Positions 19,762 to 26,530 of a stretch of 64,000 nt of DNA are shown piece by piece. The DNA lies in the NCBI RefSeq assembly GCF_013410345.1, contig NZ_JACCFJ010000001.1, positions 3,447,001 through 3,511,000 of the forward strand. The letters run 5' to 3'. Source of the DNA: Saccharopolyspora hordei (GTDB lineage Bacteria; Actinomycetota; Actinomycetes; Mycobacteriales; Pseudonocardiaceae). The notes beneath the pieces were generated by a model that had not been told where the DNA came from, made no database searches, and saw nothing but the letters and a program-made list of their open reading frames with translations. Every line of letters starts with the position of its first letter. Position 1 is the first letter of the stretch. Made by a program: the position numbers and the translations under genes.

Positions 19762-20466
19762 TCAGGACGCCACCAACGCCTCGACCACGTACGGCACCGC
19801 GGCGAGCAGCGCACCGACTCCGAGCACGGCGGTGTCCACCCGGGTCCACGGCGCCGGTTCGGCCCAGGTGCGCCGGTGGGCGCGGGCGAAGCCGCGGGCG
19901 TCCATCGCGATCGAGGCGCTGGTGGCCTCGCGCATGGTGGTGACCAGCAGCGCGAAGGTGACCGAGGCGGCGTGGCGGGCGCGGGAGACCGGCCCGCGCC
20001 CGGGGCCGAAGCCGCGTGACCGCCGGGCCCGCGAGAGGTGCTGCCAGGTCTGGCCGAGCTGCTCGAACCGCTGGAGCGCCGCGGCGAACGAGACCACGAA
20101 GCGGTGGGGCAGGCGCAGGCGCTGCCCGAGCTGGTCGGCCAGCGCCATCGGTTCGATGAGCGGAGCCACCGCCACCCCGGGCAGCGCCAGCACCACGATG
20201 CGCAGGCCCGCGGTGGCGGCGACGTCGAGCTGCCCGCCGCCGAGCAACCACGTCGAGTAGGCCACCGACAGCCCGCCCAGCACCACGGTGGCGAACCGCA
20301 GCGGGGGCCCGGAGCGCGCCGGGAGCACGACCAGCACGGCGAGCAGGTAGGCGCAGGCGGCGACCACCGCGGTGGTCAGCGACCGCACCCCCAGCGACGC
20401 GACCAGCGCCAGCAGCCCCAGCGCCACCAGCACCAGGGGGTTCGCCTTGGCGAGCACACCGGTCAT
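19762..20466 (-). CDS. ykoC: ECF transporter T component (YkoC-like) of HMP/thiamine transporter
   Basis: A 234-residue membrane protein with five to six hydrophobic segments and the coupling motif SRARRSRGFGPG (A-R-G type) in the cytoplasmic loop, as in EcfT proteins. It is the last gene of the riboswitch-controlled operon; its ATG overlaps the stop of the ATPase gene (ATGA). Confidence 0.85.
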   Translation of the reverse strand: MTGVLAKANPLVLVALGLLALVASLGVRSLTTAVVAACAYLLAVLVVLPARSGPPLRFATVVLGGLSVAYSTWLLGGGQLDVAATAGLRIVVLALPGVAVAPLIEPMALADQLGQRLRLPHRFVVSFAAALQRFEQLGQTWQHLSRARRSRGFGPGRGPVSRARHAASVTFALLVTTMREATSASIAMDARGFARAHRRTWAEPAPWTRVDTAVLGVGALLAAVPYVVEALVAS

Positions 20467-21899
20467 CGCGCCAGCACCCGCCCGCCGGCCAGCCGCGTCT
20501 CGCGGTCGGCGAGGTCGATCAGCACCGGGTCGTGGGTGGCGGCGGCCGCGGTGGCGCCGCCACGCGCGGCGGCGCGCAGCCACCCGGCGATGGTGGCCCA
20601 GGTGTGCCGGTCCTGCCCGACGGTCGGCTCGTCGAGCATCACCGCGCTGGGCCGGTGCGCGAGCGCCGCGGCGAGCGCGACCCGACGCTGCTCGCCACCG
20701 GAGAGCCGGTAGGGGTTGGCGTCGGCCAGCGCGCCCAGCCCGAGCACCTCCAGGACCGCCTCGACCTGCACGGCGGTGCCCAGCCGCTCGGCGGTGCGGG
20801 CGACCTCTCGCCGCACCGTGGTGGTGAGGAACCCGTGCTCCGGGTTCTGCGGCACCCACCCGACCGTCCGCGCCAGCTCGACGGACCGCATCCGGTGCAG
20901 GGGCACCGGGGTGCCGCTGACGCTGCCGCGGTCGGGGCGGACCAGGCCCGCCAGCGCCGCGAGGAGGGTGGACTTGCCCGCCCCGGACGGACCGGTGAGC
21001 GCCGAGACCTGCCCCGGCGGCACGGCGGCCGAGACGCCGTCGAGCGCCACCACCGAGGACGTGCCGCGCAGCCTGCGGGTGGTGAGGTCCACGCGCAGGT
21101 CGCGAGCCTCGAGGAGCGGGCCGGGGGAGTCCGGGGCCACCAGCTCCGCAGGCACGTCCACCGGTTCGGGCGCGGGCAGGCCCGGCATCCACACCCCGGC
21201 GCGGCCGAGCTCCTCGGCGAGCTCGGCGCGGCAGGTCGCGGGGTTCACGTCGTGGGTGACCCGGCCACCGGCGTCGAGCACGACCACGCGGTGGACGAGG
21301 TCGAGCCACGGGCCGATCCGGTGGTCGACGACGACCAGCGAGGCACCGGTGCCGGCCAGGACGTCGGCCACGGCCGCGCGCACCCGGTCGGCGCTGTCCG
21401 GGTCGAGCATGGAGGTCGGTTCGTCCAGCAGCAGCAACGAGGGCCGCAGCGCCAGGACGCCGGCGAGGGCGAGGCGTTGCAGCTCGCCGCCGGACAGCGC
21501 CGAGGTCGGCCGGTCGACCGGGTAGTCCAGCCCGACCAGGTCGAGGGCCTCCGCCACCCGGCGCCAGATCTCCTCGCGCGGCAGCCCGCTGTTCTCCGGG
21601 CCGAACGCGACGTCGCGGCCGATCCGGTCGGCGACCACCGCCGACCCGGGGTTCTGCAGCAGCAGGCCGATCTGGCCGTCGACCCGGACCTCGCCGCTGC
21701 GCTCGCCCGGCAGCGCGCCACCGAGCACCCCGGCCAGCGCGTGGACGACCGTCGACTTGCCCGCTCCGCTGGGACCGGCCAGCAGGATCCGCTCGCCCGG
21801 GCGGACGCGCAGGTCGAGGTCCTGGACGGCGGGCACGCGGCGCCCCAGCGGCCGCCAGCCGAAACCCCGCAGCTCCGCGCGCAGCTCCGAGGCGGTCAC
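20463..21899 (-). CDS. ykoD: ECF transporter ATPase with two fused ABC domains (YkoD-like)
   Basis: A 478-residue protein with two complete ATPase domains: Walker A GPSGAGKST near residues 42 and 302, signature LSGGELQRLALAG and LSGGEQRRVALAA, and Walker B LLLLDEPTSMLD and SAVMLDEPTVGQD. The fusion of both ECF ATPases into one chain is the YkoD pattern. GTG at 21899 overlaps the S-component stop. Confidence 0.88.
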   Translation of the reverse strand: MTASELRAELRGFGWRPLGRRVPAVQDLDLRVRPGERILLAGPSGAGKSTVVHALAGVLGGALPGERSGEVRVDGQIGLLLQNPGSAVVADRIGRDVAFGPENSGLPREEIWRRVAEALDLVGLDYPVDRPTSALSGGELQRLALAGVLALRPSLLLLDEPTSMLDPDSADRVRAAVADVLAGTGASLVVVDHRIGPWLDLVHRVVVLDAGGRVTHDVNPATCRAELAEELGRAGVWMPGLPAPEPVDVPAELVAPDSPGPLLEARDLRVDLTTRRLRGTSSVVALDGVSAAVPPGQVSALTGPSGAGKSTLLAALAGLVRPDRGSVSGTPVPLHRMRSVELARTVGWVPQNPEHGFLTTTVRREVARTAERLGTAVQVEAVLEVLGLGALADANPYRLSGGEQRRVALAAALAHRPSAVMLDEPTVGQDRHTWATIAGWLRAAARGGATAAAATHDPVLIDLADRETRLAGGRVLAR

Positions 21900-22495
21900 A
21901 CCGCCGTCCGCTCGTGGTGCTCCTGGCCCGGCCCGAACGCGTCCAGCGCCCCGGTCCCGGCCAGGCCGCGCACCAGCGCCCAGCCGCCGAGCCCGGCGAT
22001 GACCACGCCGGAGACGACGAAGAACCCGAGGTGGGCGAGCTGGTAGGGCAGCGCCCAGTCCGGGTAGTAGACCTGCCACTCGTAGACCGACTCGAACGCG
22101 GCGGCGACGGCGGCGCCCAGCGCGGCCACCACCAGGCCGAACCGCTTCCACAGGAACACGGCCAGCACCAGCTCGACGCCGAGGCCCTGCAAGCCCCCGG
22201 AGACCACGGTCGACAGCCCCCAGCTGTTGCCCAGCAGCGCCTCCACCGACGCGGCGACCAGCTCGGTCACCAGCGCCGCCCCGGGCTTGCGGACGACCAG
22301 CCCGCCGACCACGCCACCGAGCAGCCAGGCGCCCCCGAACAGGCCCGAGGTCGGCGGGAACGCGAACGCGGAGAGGGCGCTCAGCACCTGGTACAGCTGG
22401 GACCAGCCCCAGAACGCCACGCCGATCGCGACCCCGAGCATGGCCACGGTCACGACATCGATCGTCCGGTAGCGGAAAGCAGCATCGCGCGCCAC
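21896..22495 (-). CDS. ykoE: ECF transporter S component (YkoE-like), HMP/thiamine uptake
   Basis: A 199-residue membrane protein with about six hydrophobic helices (VVTVAMLGVAIGVAFWGW, FPPTSGLFGGAWLLGGVVGG, then KPGAALVTELVAASVEALLG). The pattern KPGAALxTExxAxxxExLLG is typical of YkoE, the substrate-binding subunit for the thiamine precursor hydroxymethylpyrimidine. The TPP riboswitch directly upstream supports a thiamine-related substrate. The GTG start is preceded by GGGAG, which is the 3' edge of the riboswitch. Confidence 0.9.
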   Translation of the reverse strand: MARDAAFRYRTIDVVTVAMLGVAIGVAFWGWSQLYQVLSALSAFAFPPTSGLFGGAWLLGGVVGGLVVRKPGAALVTELVAASVEALLGNSWGLSTVVSGGLQGLGVELVLAVFLWKRFGLVVAALGAAVAAAFESVYEWQVYYPDWALPYQLAHLGFFVVSGVVIAGLGGWALVRGLAGTGALDAFGPGQEHHERTAV

Positions 22496-22498
22496 TGG

Positions 22499-22590
22499 AA
22501 CTCCCTTCGCCGGTGCTAACCGGAGCAGGTTCGGAGGGTCTGCGGCTCACCCGCACTCTCAGCGCCCGTCACGGCGCTCCCCTGTCGTCG
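22499..22590 (-). ncRNA. TPP (THI element) riboswitch
   Basis: Read on the minus strand, the stretch has the conserved TPP aptamer blocks: GGGGAGCGCC, GGGCGCTGAGAGTGCGG, GCAGACCCTCCGAACCTG, CCGGTTAGCACCGGCG and AAGGGAG. CTGAGA and ACCCT/GAACCTG are the pyrimidine- and pyrophosphate-sensing cores. Its 3' arm contains the GGGAG that serves as Shine-Dalgarno sequence for ykoE, five bases before the GTG, so thiamine pyrophosphate should block translation initiation directly. Confidence 0.95.
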
Positions 22591-22799: not shown

Positions 22800-24125
22800 T
22801 CAGGAGTCGGTGCGCGCCAGGTGCAGGTCGGCCGGGCGCACCGCCAGCGTCGCGCCCGCGCCGACGAGACCGGCGACCGCGAGGTACGTGCAGGCCCACC
22901 ACGGCGAACCGCCGAGCGCCAGCAGCGCGGTGATCACCATGGGGGTCAGGCCCGAGGCGTAGATGCCGGAGAACTGGTAGACGAAGGACATCCCGGTGTA
23001 GCGCAGCTGCACGGGCGCCAGCTGCGCGTACAGGGTGCCCTGCGGCGCGTAGAGCACCGCGTGCACCACACCCAGCACCAGCACGACCACCAGCCCGGCC
23101 AGCAGCGGGTCGCGGGTCTGGAAGGCCAGGAACGCGGGGAAGACCGACGCCGCGAACAGCGTCGCGCCGACGGCGTAGGTGCGCCGCGGGGTCCAGCGGT
23201 CGGCGTACCGGCCGAACACCGGCAGCAGCAGGGCCAGCACGATCGCCGCGGCCATCACGGCCACCAGCACGTCGGTGCGCGGCAGGCCGAGCGTCGTCGT
23301 CGCGTAGGACAGGAAGAACACCGCCCAGGTGTTGAAGGCCGCGCCCTCCGCCCAGCGGGACAGCACGCCGAGCAGGGTGTTGCGCCGGACCACGCGGTCG
23401 CGGAACAGGTCCAGGAACGGGGCGCGGGACGGTTCCCGCGCCGCACGCATCCGCTCGAAGGCCGGGGTCTCGGCCACCCGCAGCCGGATCACCAGGCCGA
23501 TGAACACCAGCACGATGCTGAGCCCGAACGCGATCCGCCAGCCGTAGCCGAGGAACTGCACGTCGTCGAGCACGTGGCCGAGCAGCGCGAACACCCCGGT
23601 TCCCAGGCCCAGACCGAGCGCCAGGCCGACCTGCGGCCAGGCGCCGTAGCGGGCCTGCTTGCCGGGCGGTGCGTACTCCACCGCCATGAGCACCGCGCCG
23701 GCCCACTCGCCGCCGATCGCCAGGCCCTGCACCACGCGCAGCAGCACCAGCAGCAGCGGTGCCAGCACGCCGATGTCGTCGTAGGTGGGCAGGGCGCCCA
23801 TCAGCGCCGTGGCGCCGCCCATGAGCAGCATCGTGGTGACCAGCGTGCGCTTGCGGCCGATGCGGTCGCCGATGTGTCCGAAGAGGACACCACCGAGCGG
23901 TCGCGCGACGAACCCGACGAAGAAGGTCGCGAACGCCAGCACGGTGGACACCGTCGGGTTGTCGGCGGGGAAGAACAGCTCGTCGAAGACCAGCCCGGCT
24001 GCGGTGCTGTAGAGGAAGAAGTCGTACCACTCGACGGTGGTGCCCATCAGGCTGGACACGATCACCGTGCGGACGTCCCGCGTCCGCGGGGTCCCGGGTG
24101 CCTCGACGTGCGTGCTCGCGGTCAT
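22800..24125 (-). CDS. MFS transporter, metabolite:H+ symporter (MHS) family; possible organosulfur importer
   Basis: A 441-residue 12-helix transporter with the MHS-family start GTTVEWYDFFLYSTAAGL, loop motif GHIGDRIGRKRTLV and GLAIGGEWAGAVLMAVEYAP. Members carry proline/betaine, shikimate, citrate and other acids with protons. AGGAGG lies seven bases before the ATG. A cysteine-type leader peptide lies 88 bp upstream on the same strand, and ssuD with its own such leader is 1.2 kb away in the opposite direction. I infer a role in uptake of a sulfonate or other organosulfur compound. No ssuABC genes are visible. Confidence 0.85.
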   Translation of the reverse strand: MTASTHVEAPGTPRTRDVRTVIVSSLMGTTVEWYDFFLYSTAAGLVFDELFFPADNPTVSTVLAFATFFVGFVARPLGGVLFGHIGDRIGRKRTLVTTMLLMGGATALMGALPTYDDIGVLAPLLLVLLRVVQGLAIGGEWAGAVLMAVEYAPPGKQARYGAWPQVGLALGLGLGTGVFALLGHVLDDVQFLGYGWRIAFGLSIVLVFIGLVIRLRVAETPAFERMRAAREPSRAPFLDLFRDRVVRRNTLLGVLSRWAEGAAFNTWAVFFLSYATTTLGLPRTDVLVAVMAAAIVLALLLPVFGRYADRWTPRRTYAVGATLFAASVFPAFLAFQTRDPLLAGLVVVLVLGVVHAVLYAPQGTLYAQLAPVQLRYTGMSFVYQFSGIYASGLTPMVITALLALGGSPWWACTYLAVAGLVGAGATLAVRPADLHLARTDS

Positions 24126-24213
24126 CTGCTGCCTCCTGCGGCGACGGCCGTGCCGGGCCACCGCGGCCGTGCGCCGGGGCGCGCTGCGGTGCCCGAGGTG
24201 TCCGGTTGCTGGG

Positions 24214-24294
24214 TCAGGAGCGCGAACAGGCCGCGGACGCCACGCGCAGCAGGTCCACGTGGGAGCGGCTGGTCAGCAACACCGGTCGGAGCAC
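24214..24294 (-). CDS. Cysteine-type leader peptide (26 aa) upstream of the MHS transporter
   Basis: GTG-initiated frame of 26 codons ending in SHVDLLRVASAACSRS. The pattern (S/R)-H-V-D-L-x-R-V-x-S-A-x-C-x near the C-terminus is the actinobacterial sulfur leader peptide placed before cysteine, sulfate and sulfonate genes, where ribosome stalling at Cys codons is thought to control the downstream operon. It sits in the 350-bp gap 24126-24475; between it and the transporter start, ACGGCCG (24144-24150) and CGGCCGT (24164-24170) can pair. Confidence 0.8.
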   Translation of the reverse strand: MLRPVLLTSRSHVDLLRVASAACSRS

Positions 24295-24475
24295 GCGGCG
24301 ACGCTATGGAGGTGATCGACGCGGTGTCAAGCAGCAGGACGCCGGTTCCAGGGGGTGGGACGCGGTCGTTGACCGCGGCGTGCCGCGCCATGATGCTCGG
24401 CGAGGCGCAGGAGGTGCGCTATCGGTCCTCTGTGGACGCACGGTCCACTGGGAGGCAGCGCGACAGGAGAAGGAC

Positions 24476-25135
24476 GTGAGCGAAGAACGGGACAGCGCAG
24501 CACTGCTCGACGGACCGCGGGGCGGTGCGGCCGTCCGCGCGGCGCAGGAGGTCGCGGCCGGCCGGGCCGTGGTGGTGCACGGCTGCGCCGACGGCGGCGG
24601 CGTCGTGTTCGCCGCGGCGCGAGCGGACGTCGAGCTGACGGCCTTCGCGGTGCGCTGCTCGTCGGGCTTCCTCTGCGTGGCGCTCTCCGGCGAGCGCTGC
24701 GACGAGCTCGTGCTCCCGCCCATGTCACCGAGGACCGGGCACCGCGGGCCGACCGCGTGCGTCACGGTGGACGCCAGCGCCGGGGTGAGCACCGGCATCT
24801 CCGCGGCGGACCGGGCCCGGACGGCGCGCCTGCTCGCCGCTCCGCACACCGCCCCCGAGGACTTCACCCGGCCAGGCCACGTCGTGCCGGTCGCGGTCGG
24901 CGATGCGGTGGGCGACCCGGCGCTGCTCGCCGAGGCGGCGTTCGCCCTGGTGGGGCTGTCCGGGCTCGCCCCGGCCGCGGTCTACGCCCACCTGGTCAGC
25001 CCGGTGGACCCGACCCGGATGGCCACCGACGACGAGCTGGAAGCCTTCGCGGTGAGCGAGGGGCTCGCCAGCGCCCCGGCGGACGGGATCGCCGCACTGC
25101 GGTCCGCAACGTGGGACGCCGCGACCGCTGGTTGA
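24476..25135 (+). CDS. RibB-like protein (DHBP synthase fold) lacking metal-binding and catalytic residues
   Basis: The 219-residue protein aligns over its full length with 3,4-dihydroxy-2-butanone-4-phosphate synthase: RCSSGFLCVALSGERCDEL, then TVDASAGVSTGISAADRARTARLL and RPGHVVPV. The acidic metal-binding loop DxEDRENEGD of true enzymes is replaced by HGCADGGG, the GGHTEA motif by PALLAEA, and the late CEL by AHL. It is thus unlikely to be an active RibB. There is no fused GTP cyclohydrolase II. It lies 32 bp before the ssuD leader peptide, next to an FMNH2-dependent enzyme, so a flavin-related or ligand-sensing role is imaginable but unproven. GTG start with AGGAGAAGG upstream. Confidence 0.78.
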   Translation: MSEERDSAALLDGPRGGAAVRAAQEVAAGRAVVVHGCADGGGVVFAAARADVELTAFAVRCSSGFLCVALSGERCDELVLPPMSPRTGHRGPTACVTVDASAGVSTGISAADRARTARLLAAPHTAPEDFTRPGHVVPVAVGDAVGDPALLAEAAFALVGLSGLAPAAVYAHLVSPVDPTRMATDDELEAFAVSEGLASAPADGIAALRSATWDAATAG

Positions 25136-25166
25136 CACCCGCGGTGCTGTTTGCTGCGATTGGTCC

Positions 25167-25244
25167 GTGCGAGCAGCGGCACTGTTCACCAAGCGCCGGC
25201 ACGTGGACTTCCACCGCGTGTCGGCGCAGGCGTGTCGCTCCTGA
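25167..25244 (+). CDS. Cysteine-type leader peptide (25 aa) upstream of ssuD
   Basis: GTG-initiated frame of 25 codons: it begins VRAAALFTK and ends RRHVDFHRVSAQACRS. It has the RRHVDxxRVxxxxCR signature of actinobacterial sulfur-operon leader peptides. The stop is 113 bp before ssuD, and a hairpin with a pyrimidine-rich tail follows 10 bp after the stop, giving a complete attenuator layout. Confidence 0.85.
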   Translation: MRAAALFTKRRHVDFHRVSAQACRS

Positions 25245-25254
25245 ACCAGATCTC

Positions 25255-25277
25255 ACCCGCCGGACCGCGCGGCGGGT
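25255..25277 (+). terminator. Attenuator-like hairpin between leader peptide and ssuD
   Basis: ACCCGCCG (25255-25262) pairs with CGGCGGGT (25270-25277) over a 7-base loop, followed by TCCCCTCTCTCGTC. It starts 10 bp after the leader stop codon, so a ribosome stalled or released at the leader end could affect its folding. Confidence 0.6.
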
Positions 25278-25357
25278 TCCCCTCTCTCGTCCACATCGGA
25301 CATGACGGGTGCACGACCGCTCGCCGCGGGTCGGCGCCGCTTCCCCTGGAGTGACTG

Positions 25358-26530
25358 ATGTCCTTGACGTTCCACTGGTTCCTGCCCACCTACGGCGACA
25401 GCCGCTACCTCGTCGGCGGTGGGCACGGCGTGGCCACCACCAACACCGCCTCGGGTTCCCGCCCGGCCACGCTGGCCTACCTCGGCCAGATCGCGCGCAG
25501 CGCCGAGCAGCTCGGGTTCGAAGGCGCGTTGACCCCCACCGGCGCGTGGTGCGAGGACGCCTGGCTGTCCACGGCGATGCTGACGGAGGTCACCGAGCGG
25601 CTCAAGTTCCTCATCGCGTTCCGGCCCGGGCTGCTGTCGCCGACGCTGGCCGCGCAGATGGCGGCGACATTCCAGCGCCACTCCGGCAAGCGCCTGCTGC
25701 TCAACGTGGTCACCGGCGGGGAGAGCGCCGAGCAGCGCGCCTACGGCGACTTCCTGGACAAGGACGCCCGCTACGCGCGCTGCGACGAGTTCCTGCACGT
25801 GGTGCGATCGCTGTGGCGCGGGGAGCGGGTCGACTTCAGCGGCACGCACGTCCACGTCGAGGGTGCCGAGCTCACCCGCACCCCGGACCCGGTGCCGACG
25901 GTGTACTTCGGCGGTTCCTCGCCCGCGGCCGGCACGGTGGCGGCCAAGCACGCCGACGTGTACCTGACCTGGGGCGAGCCGCCGCAGAAGGTCGCGGAGA
26001 AGGTTGAGTGGATCCGCGGGCTCGCCGCCGAGCAGGGCCGCACCCCGCGCTTCGGCATCCGGCTGCACGTGATCAGCCGCGACACCAGCGAGCAGGCCTG
26101 GGCCGAGGCGCAGCGGCTGCTGGACGCGCTGGACCCGGCGACCATCGCGCGGGTGCAGGAGGGCCTGAGCCGCAGCGAGTCCGAGGGCCAGCGGCGGATG
26201 CGGGAGCTGCACGGCGGCTCGACGGCCGACCTGGAGATCTACCCGAACCTGTGGGCGGGCGTCGGACTGGTCCGCGGCGGTGCCGGGACCGCGCTGGTCG
26301 GCAGCCACGCCGAGGTGGCCGAGCGGATCGAGGAGTACCACGCGCTGGGCATCGACGAGTTCGTGCTCTCCGGGCACCCGCACCTGGAGGAGGCGTACTG
26401 GTTCGGCGAGGGCGTGCTGCCGATCCTGGAGCGCAAGGGCCTGTGGCGGCACCCGGCGGGCGCGGTGGAGGCCGCCCCGGCCGGCATCCCGTTCGCCGAC
26501 GGGGCGCGGGAGCCCGCCGCGGCGTCCTGA
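25358..26530 (+). CDS. ssuD: FMNH2-dependent alkanesulfonate monooxygenase
   Basis: A 390-residue bacterial-luciferase-like monooxygenase that releases sulfite from alkanesulfonates. Diagnostic SsuD text includes LTFHWFLPTYGDSRYLVGG, RPGLLSPTLAAQMAATFQR, LLLNVVTGGE, VYFGGSSPAAGTVAAKHADV and YLTWGEPPQKV. The length matches the family (~380). It needs a flavin reductase (SsuE type), which is not visible nearby. It is preceded by a leader peptide and hairpin and followed by a terminator, so it appears to be a single-gene attenuated unit. Confidence 0.93.
   Translation: MSLTFHWFLPTYGDSRYLVGGGHGVATTNTASGSRPATLAYLGQIARSAEQLGFEGALTPTGAWCEDAWLSTAMLTEVTERLKFLIAFRPGLLSPTLAAQMAATFQRHSGKRLLLNVVTGGESAEQRAYGDFLDKDARYARCDEFLHVVRSLWRGERVDFSGTHVHVEGAELTRTPDPVPTVYFGGSSPAAGTVAAKHADVYLTWGEPPQKVAEKVEWIRGLAAEQGRTPRFGIRLHVISRDTSEQAWAEAQRLLDALDPATIARVQEGLSRSESEGQRRMRELHGGSTADLEIYPNLWAGVGLVRGGAGTALVGSHAEVAERIEEYHALGIDEFVLSGHPHLEEAYWFGEGVLPILERKGLWRHPAGAVEAAPAGIPFADGAREPAAAS

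Follow-up and report, generated by a model that had tools for sequence, protein, structure and literature searches.

A candidate sulfonate-scavenging module in Saccharopolyspora hordei: an MHS-type symporter and SsuD, each behind a cysteine-type leader peptide

Layout of the locus

The window (the whole 64,000-nucleotide stretch of the Saccharopolyspora hordei genome that was analyzed) contains a transporter gene and an ssuD gene on opposite strands, each preceded by a short leader ORF and a predicted promoter.

22800..24125, minus strand: MFS transporter of the MHS type (similar to metabolite:H+ symporters), 441 aa, beginning with ATG at 24125
24126..24137, minus strand: Shine-Dalgarno region of the transporter, AGGAGGCAGCAG, letters read directly
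24214..24294, minus strand: leader peptide 1, 26 aa, GTG start, upstream of the transporter
24226..24228, minus strand: UGU cysteine codon of leader 1 (TGT in 14/14 genus MHS leaders)
24301..24330, minus strand: predicted promoter of leader 1 (TTGACA 24325-24330, 18-nt spacer, TAGCGT 24301-24306; 6 nt ahead of the GTG)
24476..25135, plus strand: DHBP synthase (ribB-like), 219 aa, between both leaders
25132..25160, plus strand: predicted promoter of leader 2 (TTGACA 25132-25137, 17-nt spacer, TGCGAT 25155-25160; 6 nt ahead of the GTG)
25167..25244, plus strand: leader peptide 2, 25 aa, GTG start, upstream of ssuD
25233..25235, plus strand: UGU cysteine codon of leader 2 (TGT in 14/14 genus ssuD leaders)
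25358..26530, plus strand: SsuD type A (FMNH2-dependent alkanesulfonate monooxygenase-like), 390 aa

Both leaders lie exactly where the initial annotation of this DNA had placed them, match the H-V-D-x-x-R-V-x-x-x-x-C core that it described and stand, as it stated, ahead of the genes for an MFS transporter of the MHS type and a luciferase-like monooxygenase of the SsuD type, respectively. They are free-standing short ORFs, with stops 88 and 113 nt ahead of the MHS and ssuD starts. The transporter start that had been proposed, GTG 24161, is better replaced by ATG 24125, with AGGAGG at 24132-24137. The orthologues start at the same position (ATG; GTG in L083), and the Shine-Dalgarno sequence is GGAGGCA in 11 of the 14 genus sequences and GGAGACA in the other 3.

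The DHBP synthase gene, absent from the initial annotation, matches PF00926 (132.2 bits, over the cut-off) and TIGR00506 (84.9 bits, below the cut-off); two of the 13 relatives (L076, L082) likewise carry it between the leaders. The sole Rfam match in the window at the gathering threshold is a TPP riboswitch at 22500-22585.

The leader peptides and their cysteine codon

Leader 1 matches the NCBIfam model NF042934 (‘putative leader peptide') with 32.6 bits, over the cut-off of 27, and leader 2 with 19.4 bits, under it (whole-genome E-values 2.4e-6 and 0.033). Six of 14 unrelated control genomes also yield matches to this model at E<=1, though never over the cut-off, so that leader 2 is identified by its position and conservation and not by its score. 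The bare nucleotide pattern of the leader matches the genome 100 times and its reversed control 73 times, and is weak evidence by itself. The initial annotation had made its proposal depend on conservation of the leader frames in relatives, and both leaders are in place at all 13 same-genus orthologous loci. The amino acids of the HVD..RV core are kept among the leaders, while the codons vary.

This genome contains 15 matches to NF042934 at E<=1, 7 of them over the cut-off; one of the 15 leaders (L005) has no in-frame ATG, GTG or TTG start. Besides the two leaders of the window, 9 of the 13 others precede genes with a known sulfur role (DUF4395 + rhodanese, TauE, SsuC, MetY-type sulfhydrylase, SsuA, cysteine dioxygenase and SsuE) or a merely plausible one (a nitrite/sulfite reductase-type protein and an NtaA/DmoA-type monooxygenase). 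The remaining four precede genes without an evident sulfur role, namely, a truncated amino-acid permease, a DctA-like symporter, a winged-helix regulator and an unassigned protein, and therefore, the leader by itself is weaker evidence of such a role.

The canonical leader cysteine is encoded by UGU in 14 of the 15 own-genome leaders, compared with 18 of 327 background cysteine codons, and in 23 of 24 leaders of eight other actinobacterial genomes, against a background of 8/85. Among the 88 leaders of the fetched loci, 14 have TGC at this site, all from one genus. This bias suggests sensing of charged tRNA-Cys. Upstream of the genus MHS leaders, TTGAC is present in 14/14 and TAGCGT in 9/14 sequences; the TTGAC element is also found upstream of the genus ssuD leaders and begins 35–37 nt ahead of the leader start codon in 8 of the 15 own-genome leaders. 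A generic sigma-70 scan called neither of the predicted leader promoters. With the promoter only 6 nt ahead of the GTG, the transcripts are predicted to be leaderless. The new elements here are the UGU bias at the key leader cysteine and a promoter spacing suggestive of leaderless transcripts.

The spacers are rich in C and poor in G (C minus G is 0.157 and 0.190, whereas 130 control regions give 0.018), and no intrinsic terminator was found in 24100-25400. Sequestration of the Shine-Dalgarno sequence by the leader was considered, given that when the 14 genus MHS leaders were each folded singly, codons 4–9 seemed to pair with the ribosome site in most cases. This scheme was not adopted: when synonymous codons were shuffled, leaders were swapped from one genome to another or the stretch under a stalled ribosome was masked, it gained no support for ssuD, where the pairing was no better than chance, and gained weak support for MHS. 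Simulating a stall at the cysteine did not free the Shine-Dalgarno region. A hairpin built from the codons for HV and RV, which might explain the conserved core, was also considered and not adopted because the second Val is encoded by GTC in several own-genome leaders and is replaced by Gln in L008, L009 and L011.

The transporter clade and its linkage to SsuD

The transporter is over the cut-off for Pfam MFS_1 (130.4 bits). Its AlphaFold model (mean pLDDT 88.8) yields MFS-type transporters as the best Foldseek matches; these are general MFS relatives, and the fold search is uninformative on the substrate. The comparison set consists of 59 MHS-type members that form the clade of this transporter, with W258 and T364 as typical residues, and 37 transporters outside it. 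The initial annotation had suggested looking for the HVDxxRV leader ahead of MHS homologues in related genomes: a leader lies directly upstream of 30 of the 59 clade members and, in 6 more, ahead of an ssuD-MHS gene pair. SsuD adjoins 43 of the 59, in four gene orders, 22 of them being close same-strand pairs in either order. Overall, 50 of the 59 have SsuD, SfnG or a leader of their own, compared with 0/37 outside the clade. The nine clade members with none of these nearby (six of the nine neighborhoods were read) include three from Nocardia, three from Mycolicibacterium, one from Rhodococcus and one from Streptomyces (flank partly masked).

The SsuD of the window falls under the cut-offs of NF001939 (479.6 bits, cut-off 510) and TIGR03565 (462.4, cut-off 518.2) and is over that of Bac_luciferase (255). 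Its matches to PDB 7jv3 and 1nqk have E-values of about 2e-116. Of the residues that we take to form the active site of SsuD (C54, R226, H228, R297 and Y331), the regions of the Cys, both Arg and the His match in the alignment, and the Tyr of SGYPHLEEAY is replaced by His.

Among the genomes of the family, SsuD type A is present in 43 of the 44 that have the transporter clade, compared with 16 of the 253 others, where the type boundary of 70% was set after the list was seen and neighbors lie at 69%. Either SsuD type is present in 44/44 and 127/253, respectively. The compared genomes are related, and the Fisher values for this co-occurrence overstate independence. In two same-genus genomes that have SsuD type A and no clade transporter, SsuC and SsuA lie beside it (in L211, SsuB too). 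This genome has two further SsuD-like genes, both next to SsuA homologues; the window SsuD has the symporter. The earlier statement that ssuABC is missing nearby holds within the window, where tblastn (E-value 1e-5), run with a single query each for SsuA, SsuC and SsuB, matched only ATPase domains in ORF 20463-22556, read as an ECF-type transporter.

Beside the conservation of the leader, the SsuD linkage in four gene orders and the co-occurrence constitute a separate argument for a sulfonate-type substrate. The initial prediction that this symporter imports a sulfonate or another organosulfur compound is thereby supported. This transporter probably imports sulfonates and is turned on at low cysteine, given that it and SsuD each stand behind a cysteine leader and that the pairing is kept across gene orders in relatives.

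A proposed mechanism, its alternatives and known systems

From what the sequence comparison shows, namely, conserved leaders with their UGU codon, the spacing of the promoters and the linkage of MHS to SsuD, we infer the import, its substrate, the cysteine response and the damping step as follows. The symporter would import a small sulfonate, the best guess being an alkanesulfonate such as methanesulfonate, and SsuD, with FMNH2, would cleave the C-S bond to release sulfite for cysteine synthesis. Each gene has a separate predicted promoter and a separate leader peptide; transcription is predicted to begin at the leader GTG, and a ribosome would translate the leader. When charged tRNA-Cys is scarce, the ribosome would stall at the single UGU near the leader end and the downstream gene would be expressed; under ample cysteine, it would complete the leader and expression would be damped, possibly via Rho acting on the C-rich, G-poor spacer. 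We consider it likely that the two genes form a sulfonate-scavenging module under leader-based cysteine control. The broader proposition, that this MHS clade is a dedicated proton-coupled sulfonate importer replacing SsuABC in several actinobacterial genera, and that the whole HVD-leader sulfur regulon senses cysteine via a single rare UGU at a fixed site of a leaderless ORF, appears evenly balanced.

The symporter might, alternatively, move a sulfur compound that is not a substrate of SsuD (a sulfate ester, a betaine-like sulfur compound or cystine), or export a product, for example sulfite, and be merely co-regulated with ssuD. This is compatible with the own-genome leaders that precede TauE-type, amino-acid-permease-type and DctA-like transporters, and with the transporters of L096, L097, L104, L106 and L132, which have a leader and no SsuD within the fetched flank (G066, the genome of L096, has SsuD type A about 21 kb from the transporter). 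Nevertheless, the prevalence of SsuD beside the clade members, often in close same-strand pairs, and in 43 of the 44 genomes with the clade makes this alternative unlikely. That the symporter serves another metabolite, shikimate-like or a dicarboxylate, with an accidental location beside ssuD, is highly improbable: the best equivalog-type NCBIfam match is indeed the shikimate transporter (322 bits, cut-off 538) and MHS-type matches at E<=1e-60 number 22 in the genome, but the window transporter alone among these 22 stands behind one of the 15 leaders, and its pairing with SsuD is conserved through rearranged gene orders.

It is rather unlikely that the leader acts through its conserved nascent peptide, or through an RNA motif of UGU and a following pyrimidine, instead of charged tRNA-Cys. 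Retention of the core at the amino acid level despite varying codons fits such an action, as does the pyrimidine that follows the canonical codon in 38 of 39 leaders, but two genus MHS leaders (L076, L079) have G after UGU. Furthermore, the third base of the canonical codon contrasts sharply with the surrounding third positions, which are GC-rich, the other cysteine codons are mostly TGC (32/33 in leaders of the fetched loci and 4/6 in own-genome leaders, although only 31/47 in the phylum set, which includes poly-Cys runs), and the neighboring regulon genes serve sulfur supply.

Under the scheme with cysteine control of a sulfonate importer, the transporter clade, which sequence models alone would call shikimate-like, gains a testable substrate class, and a second route of sulfonate import beside the ABC systems is suggested. 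The fixed UGU provides a concrete hypothesis for the ‘putative leader peptide' family, in that one synonymous change should alter cysteine control, and the leader could serve as a genome-wide marker for sulfur-scavenging genes without an assigned role.

A literature search, with most subscription papers outside its scope, found nothing on the HVDLLRV core, an MHS-type sulfonate importer or the UGU bias in these leaders. In the available text of PMC8632094, UGC dominates in the cysS leader of Rhodobacterales, which counts against the generality of UGU; that of PMC7661421, on Gordonia and sulfonates, describes induction of an ABC sulfonate protein and does not contain the words symporter or MFS.

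Among the closest known systems is NF042934 (cis_reg_atten), likewise an HVDL..RV....C peptide upstream of sulfur genes; the protein model leaves out the UGU codon, the promoter spacing and the targets, and places leader 2 under its cut-off. TIGR00883 (MHS family) is the best NCBIfam match of the transporter, with the EWYDFF motif and the MFS fold in common, although its score of 367.6 bits is under the curated cut-off of 443.45. The usual functions of MHS family members involve shikimate, ketoglutarate, citrate and betaine.

Cysteine-responsive attenuation through polycysteine leaderless short ORFs has been described in mycobacteria (Canestrari et al. 2020, as mentioned in PMC9094748 and PMC13236596). 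As far as these mentions go, such ORFs resemble the window leaders in being short and upstream of sulfur genes; they are leaderless, as the promoter spacing predicts for the window transcripts, and differ in having a run of Cys, in contrast to one Cys codon and another peptide core in each window leader, and in their targets, which for the window is a sulfonate module. The sfnG/sfnB dimethylsulfone pathway is related through SfnG, which adjoins the module in the clusters of 6 of the 13 genus relatives and was not found in the sequence flanking the window locus; in L213, a leader, SfnG, SfnB, SsuE and SsuD type A occur together (SfnG, SfnB and SsuE over their cut-offs). With the SsuABC-SsuD systems, the module shares a monooxygenase of the SsuD type, which matches solved structures of SsuD and of the MsuD type at E about 1e-116 although it scores under the equivalog cut-off; those systems employ an ABC importer, whereas the partner of the window SsuD is an MFS symporter.

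Layout of the locus and conservation of its leaders

The MHS-type transporter and the SsuD-type monooxygenase are divergently oriented, each behind its own leader:

22800-24125, minus strand: MHS-type MFS transporter (profile matches and sequence reading)
24214-24294, minus strand: leader 1, 26 amino acids, upstream of the MHS-type transporter
24476-25135, plus strand: single-domain, ribB-like DHBP synthase, upstream of leader 2
25167-25244, plus strand: leader 2, 25 amino acids, upstream of ssuD
25358-26530, plus strand: SsuD-type monooxygenase

For the transporter, ATG 24125 is a better start than GTG 24161: the orthologues in the genus begin there, and AGGAGG precedes it.

Leader 1 matches the NCBIfam model NF042934 (‘putative leader peptide') with 32.6 bits, over the cut-off of 27, and leader 2 with 19.4 bits, under it. 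The S. hordei genome contains 15 matches at E<=1 (9 at E<=0.001, 7 over the cut-off); at E<=1, the model also matches in 6 of the 14 control genomes, always under the cut-off, so the weakest of the 15 leaders rest on the genes downstream. L005, one of these matches, lacks any in-frame ATG, GTG or TTG. The bare motif shared by the two leaders, pointed out in the initial annotation, is not rare in the genome and says little by itself. At the sequence level, it is conservation within the genus that decides for genuine leaders: the transporter is present at at least 80% identity in 14 of the 22 genomes, S. hordei included, and all 13 relatives retain both leader frames and the divergent MHS/ssuD order. 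At 56-57% identity, the genus has two further copies (L089, L090), both without a leader and without ssuD.

The ribB-like gene adjoins ssuD in the window and in 2 of the 13 relatives (L076, L082), and could provide extra flavin for SsuD; a perfect inverted repeat, GTGGAC-GCACG-GTCCAC (24432-24448), lies just before it and is a possible operator. Directly ahead of a small membrane-protein gene (21896-22495) and of ATPase domains that resemble, by eye, an ECF-type thiamin importer lies a TPP riboswitch (RF00059, 56.2 bits; 22500-22585, minus strand).

A transporter clade associated with SsuD

Loci were drawn from two sources: of the 44 family-level matches outside the genus, 40 were fetched, and named genomes supplied 80 loci, of which 40 entered the tree of 96 transporters. 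Every linked copy falls in a single clade of 59 (SH-aLRT 99, quick method); linked copies occur in, among others, Streptomyces, Rhodococcus, Mycobacterium and a Modestobacter genome bin. SsuD is found within the fetched flank of 43 of the 59 members, in four gene orders (16 divergent, 15 ssuD before MHS, 7 MHS before ssuD, 5 convergent). If SfnG and a leader of the transporter's own are counted as well, 50 members are linked; the other nine show none of these in the flank (six neighbourhoods were read, and the flank of L133 is partly masked). Outside the clade, none of the 37 tree rows has SsuD, SfnG or an own leader, two of these loci being shorter than 4 kb.

The association extends to whole genomes. 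Among 297 family genomes, SsuD at E<=1e-140 is present in 171, and type A, i.e. SsuD with at least 70% identity to that of the window, in 59 (this line was set after the list was seen; the next ones are at 69%). Of the 44 genomes with a clade transporter, 43 also encode type A, compared with 16 of the 253 others (counted by hand from genome listings and the tree), and in two of these 16 (G155, G249) the count overlooked an MHS gene adjoining ssuD (L228, L224). SsuD of either type occurs in 44 of 44 genomes with the clade transporter and in 127 of the 253 others.

In the two genomes of the genus that have type A SsuD and lack the clade transporter, ABC genes adjoin ssuD: one locus (L211) consists of SsuE, SsuD-A, SsuC, SsuB, SsuA and a second SsuD, and in the other (L212), SsuC and SsuA precede SsuD-A. 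S. hordei has two more SsuD-like genes (435 and 221 bits, against a cut-off of 518), both located next to SsuA homologues and behind leaders. The symporter thus seems, from gene neighbourhoods, to replace the ABC importer as the partner of SsuD. In several other genera, a leader is followed by SfnG, acyl-CoA-dehydrogenase-type genes and SsuE, with SsuD-A last in the run; in one such locus (L213), SfnG, SfnB and SsuE each exceed the family cut-off.

Leader targets, cysteine codon and expression control

Apart from the two in the window, 9 of the 13 leaders in the S. hordei genome stand before genes with a known sulfur role (DUF4395 with rhodanese, TauE, SsuC-like permease, O-acetylhomoserine/serine sulfhydrylase, SsuA, cysteine dioxygenase, SsuE) or a plausible one (nitrite/sulfite reductase-type protein, NtaA/DmoA-type monooxygenase). 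The genes behind the remaining four encode a truncated amino-acid permease, a DctA-like symporter, a winged-helix regulator and an unassigned protein, so a leader suggests a sulfur role for the gene behind it and does not prove it. The winged-helix regulator (leader L012, G000:C1 3918682-3918738) is a candidate sulfur regulator. Leader L011 (G000:C1 2040554-2040610) lies upstream of a protein of at least 467 amino acids whose N-terminus looks like that of a secreted protein; it matched nothing in Pfam (E<=1e-5) or NCBIfam (E<=1e-8).

At the canonical cysteine, TGT is used by all 14 MHS and all 14 ssuD leaders of the genus, by 14 of the 15 S. hordei leaders and by 23 of 24 in a phylum set, which comes from eight other actinobacterial genomes and represents the loci that scored best among 149 sampled genomes. 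TGT accounts for 18 of 327 background cysteine codons from S. hordei ORFs and for 8 of 85 from the phylum loci. Other leader cysteines are encoded by TGC in 32 of 33 cases in the fetched loci, 4 of 6 in S. hordei and 31 of 47 in the phylum set, where poly-Cys runs occur. NF042934 being a protein model, the search does not select the codon, and the bias cannot be attributed to model selection. Contrary to the TGT rule, 14 of the 88 leaders of the fetched loci, all from one genus, have TGC at the canonical site. In that lineage (genus g42; L110, L115, L120-L123, L224), both leaders of each locus carry TGC, not TGT, which makes it a natural experiment on the canonical codon. A pyrimidine directly follows the canonical codon in 38 of the 39 S. 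hordei and phylum leaders, which may point to decoding being influenced by the RNA or by codon context. If a single tRNA-Cys reads both cysteine codons, UGU is probably preferred because it is decoded more slowly. A theoretical study (PMC1183508) has attenuator sensitivity set by synonymous codon choice.

TTGAC starts 35-37 nt upstream of the leader start codon in 8 of the 15 S. hordei and 5 of the 24 phylum leaders (counts without a shuffled control). Both predicted promoters in the window end 6 nt upstream of the leader GTG, which makes leaderless transcripts likely. The spacers behind the leaders are C-rich and G-poor, with a mean C minus G within the genus of 0.224 for MHS and 0.182 for ssuD; the 15 S. 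hordei leaders average 0.157 and the 24 from the phylum 0.190, compared with 0.018 for 130 control upstream regions. A scan for intrinsic terminators found none. Both observations fit, and do not prove, Rho-dependent damping, which would act on the spacer downstream of the leader; for the cys leaders of mycobacteria, a 2005 paper offers this as a weak prediction (PMC1262725). The idea that the leader sequesters the ribosome site was also tested and was not supported.

Substrate and known systems

The initial annotation had the symporter import a sulfonate or another organosulfur compound. In alignment, the window SsuD resembles solved MsuD-type and SsuD sequences equally, and SfnG lies within the cluster in 6 of the 13 genus relatives, so that methanesulfonate or a short alkanesulfonate would be a tentative best guess. 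Type A SsuD has His in place of the Tyr of SGYPHLEEAY in solved SsuD and MsuD, which we take to be Tyr331 of SsuD; both relatives whose complete sequence was read (L076, L083) have the same His.

The literature searches turned up neither an MHS clade under leader control that partners SsuD nor a fixed UGU codon in these leaders; the leader peptide family and the SsuD enzyme themselves are already known.
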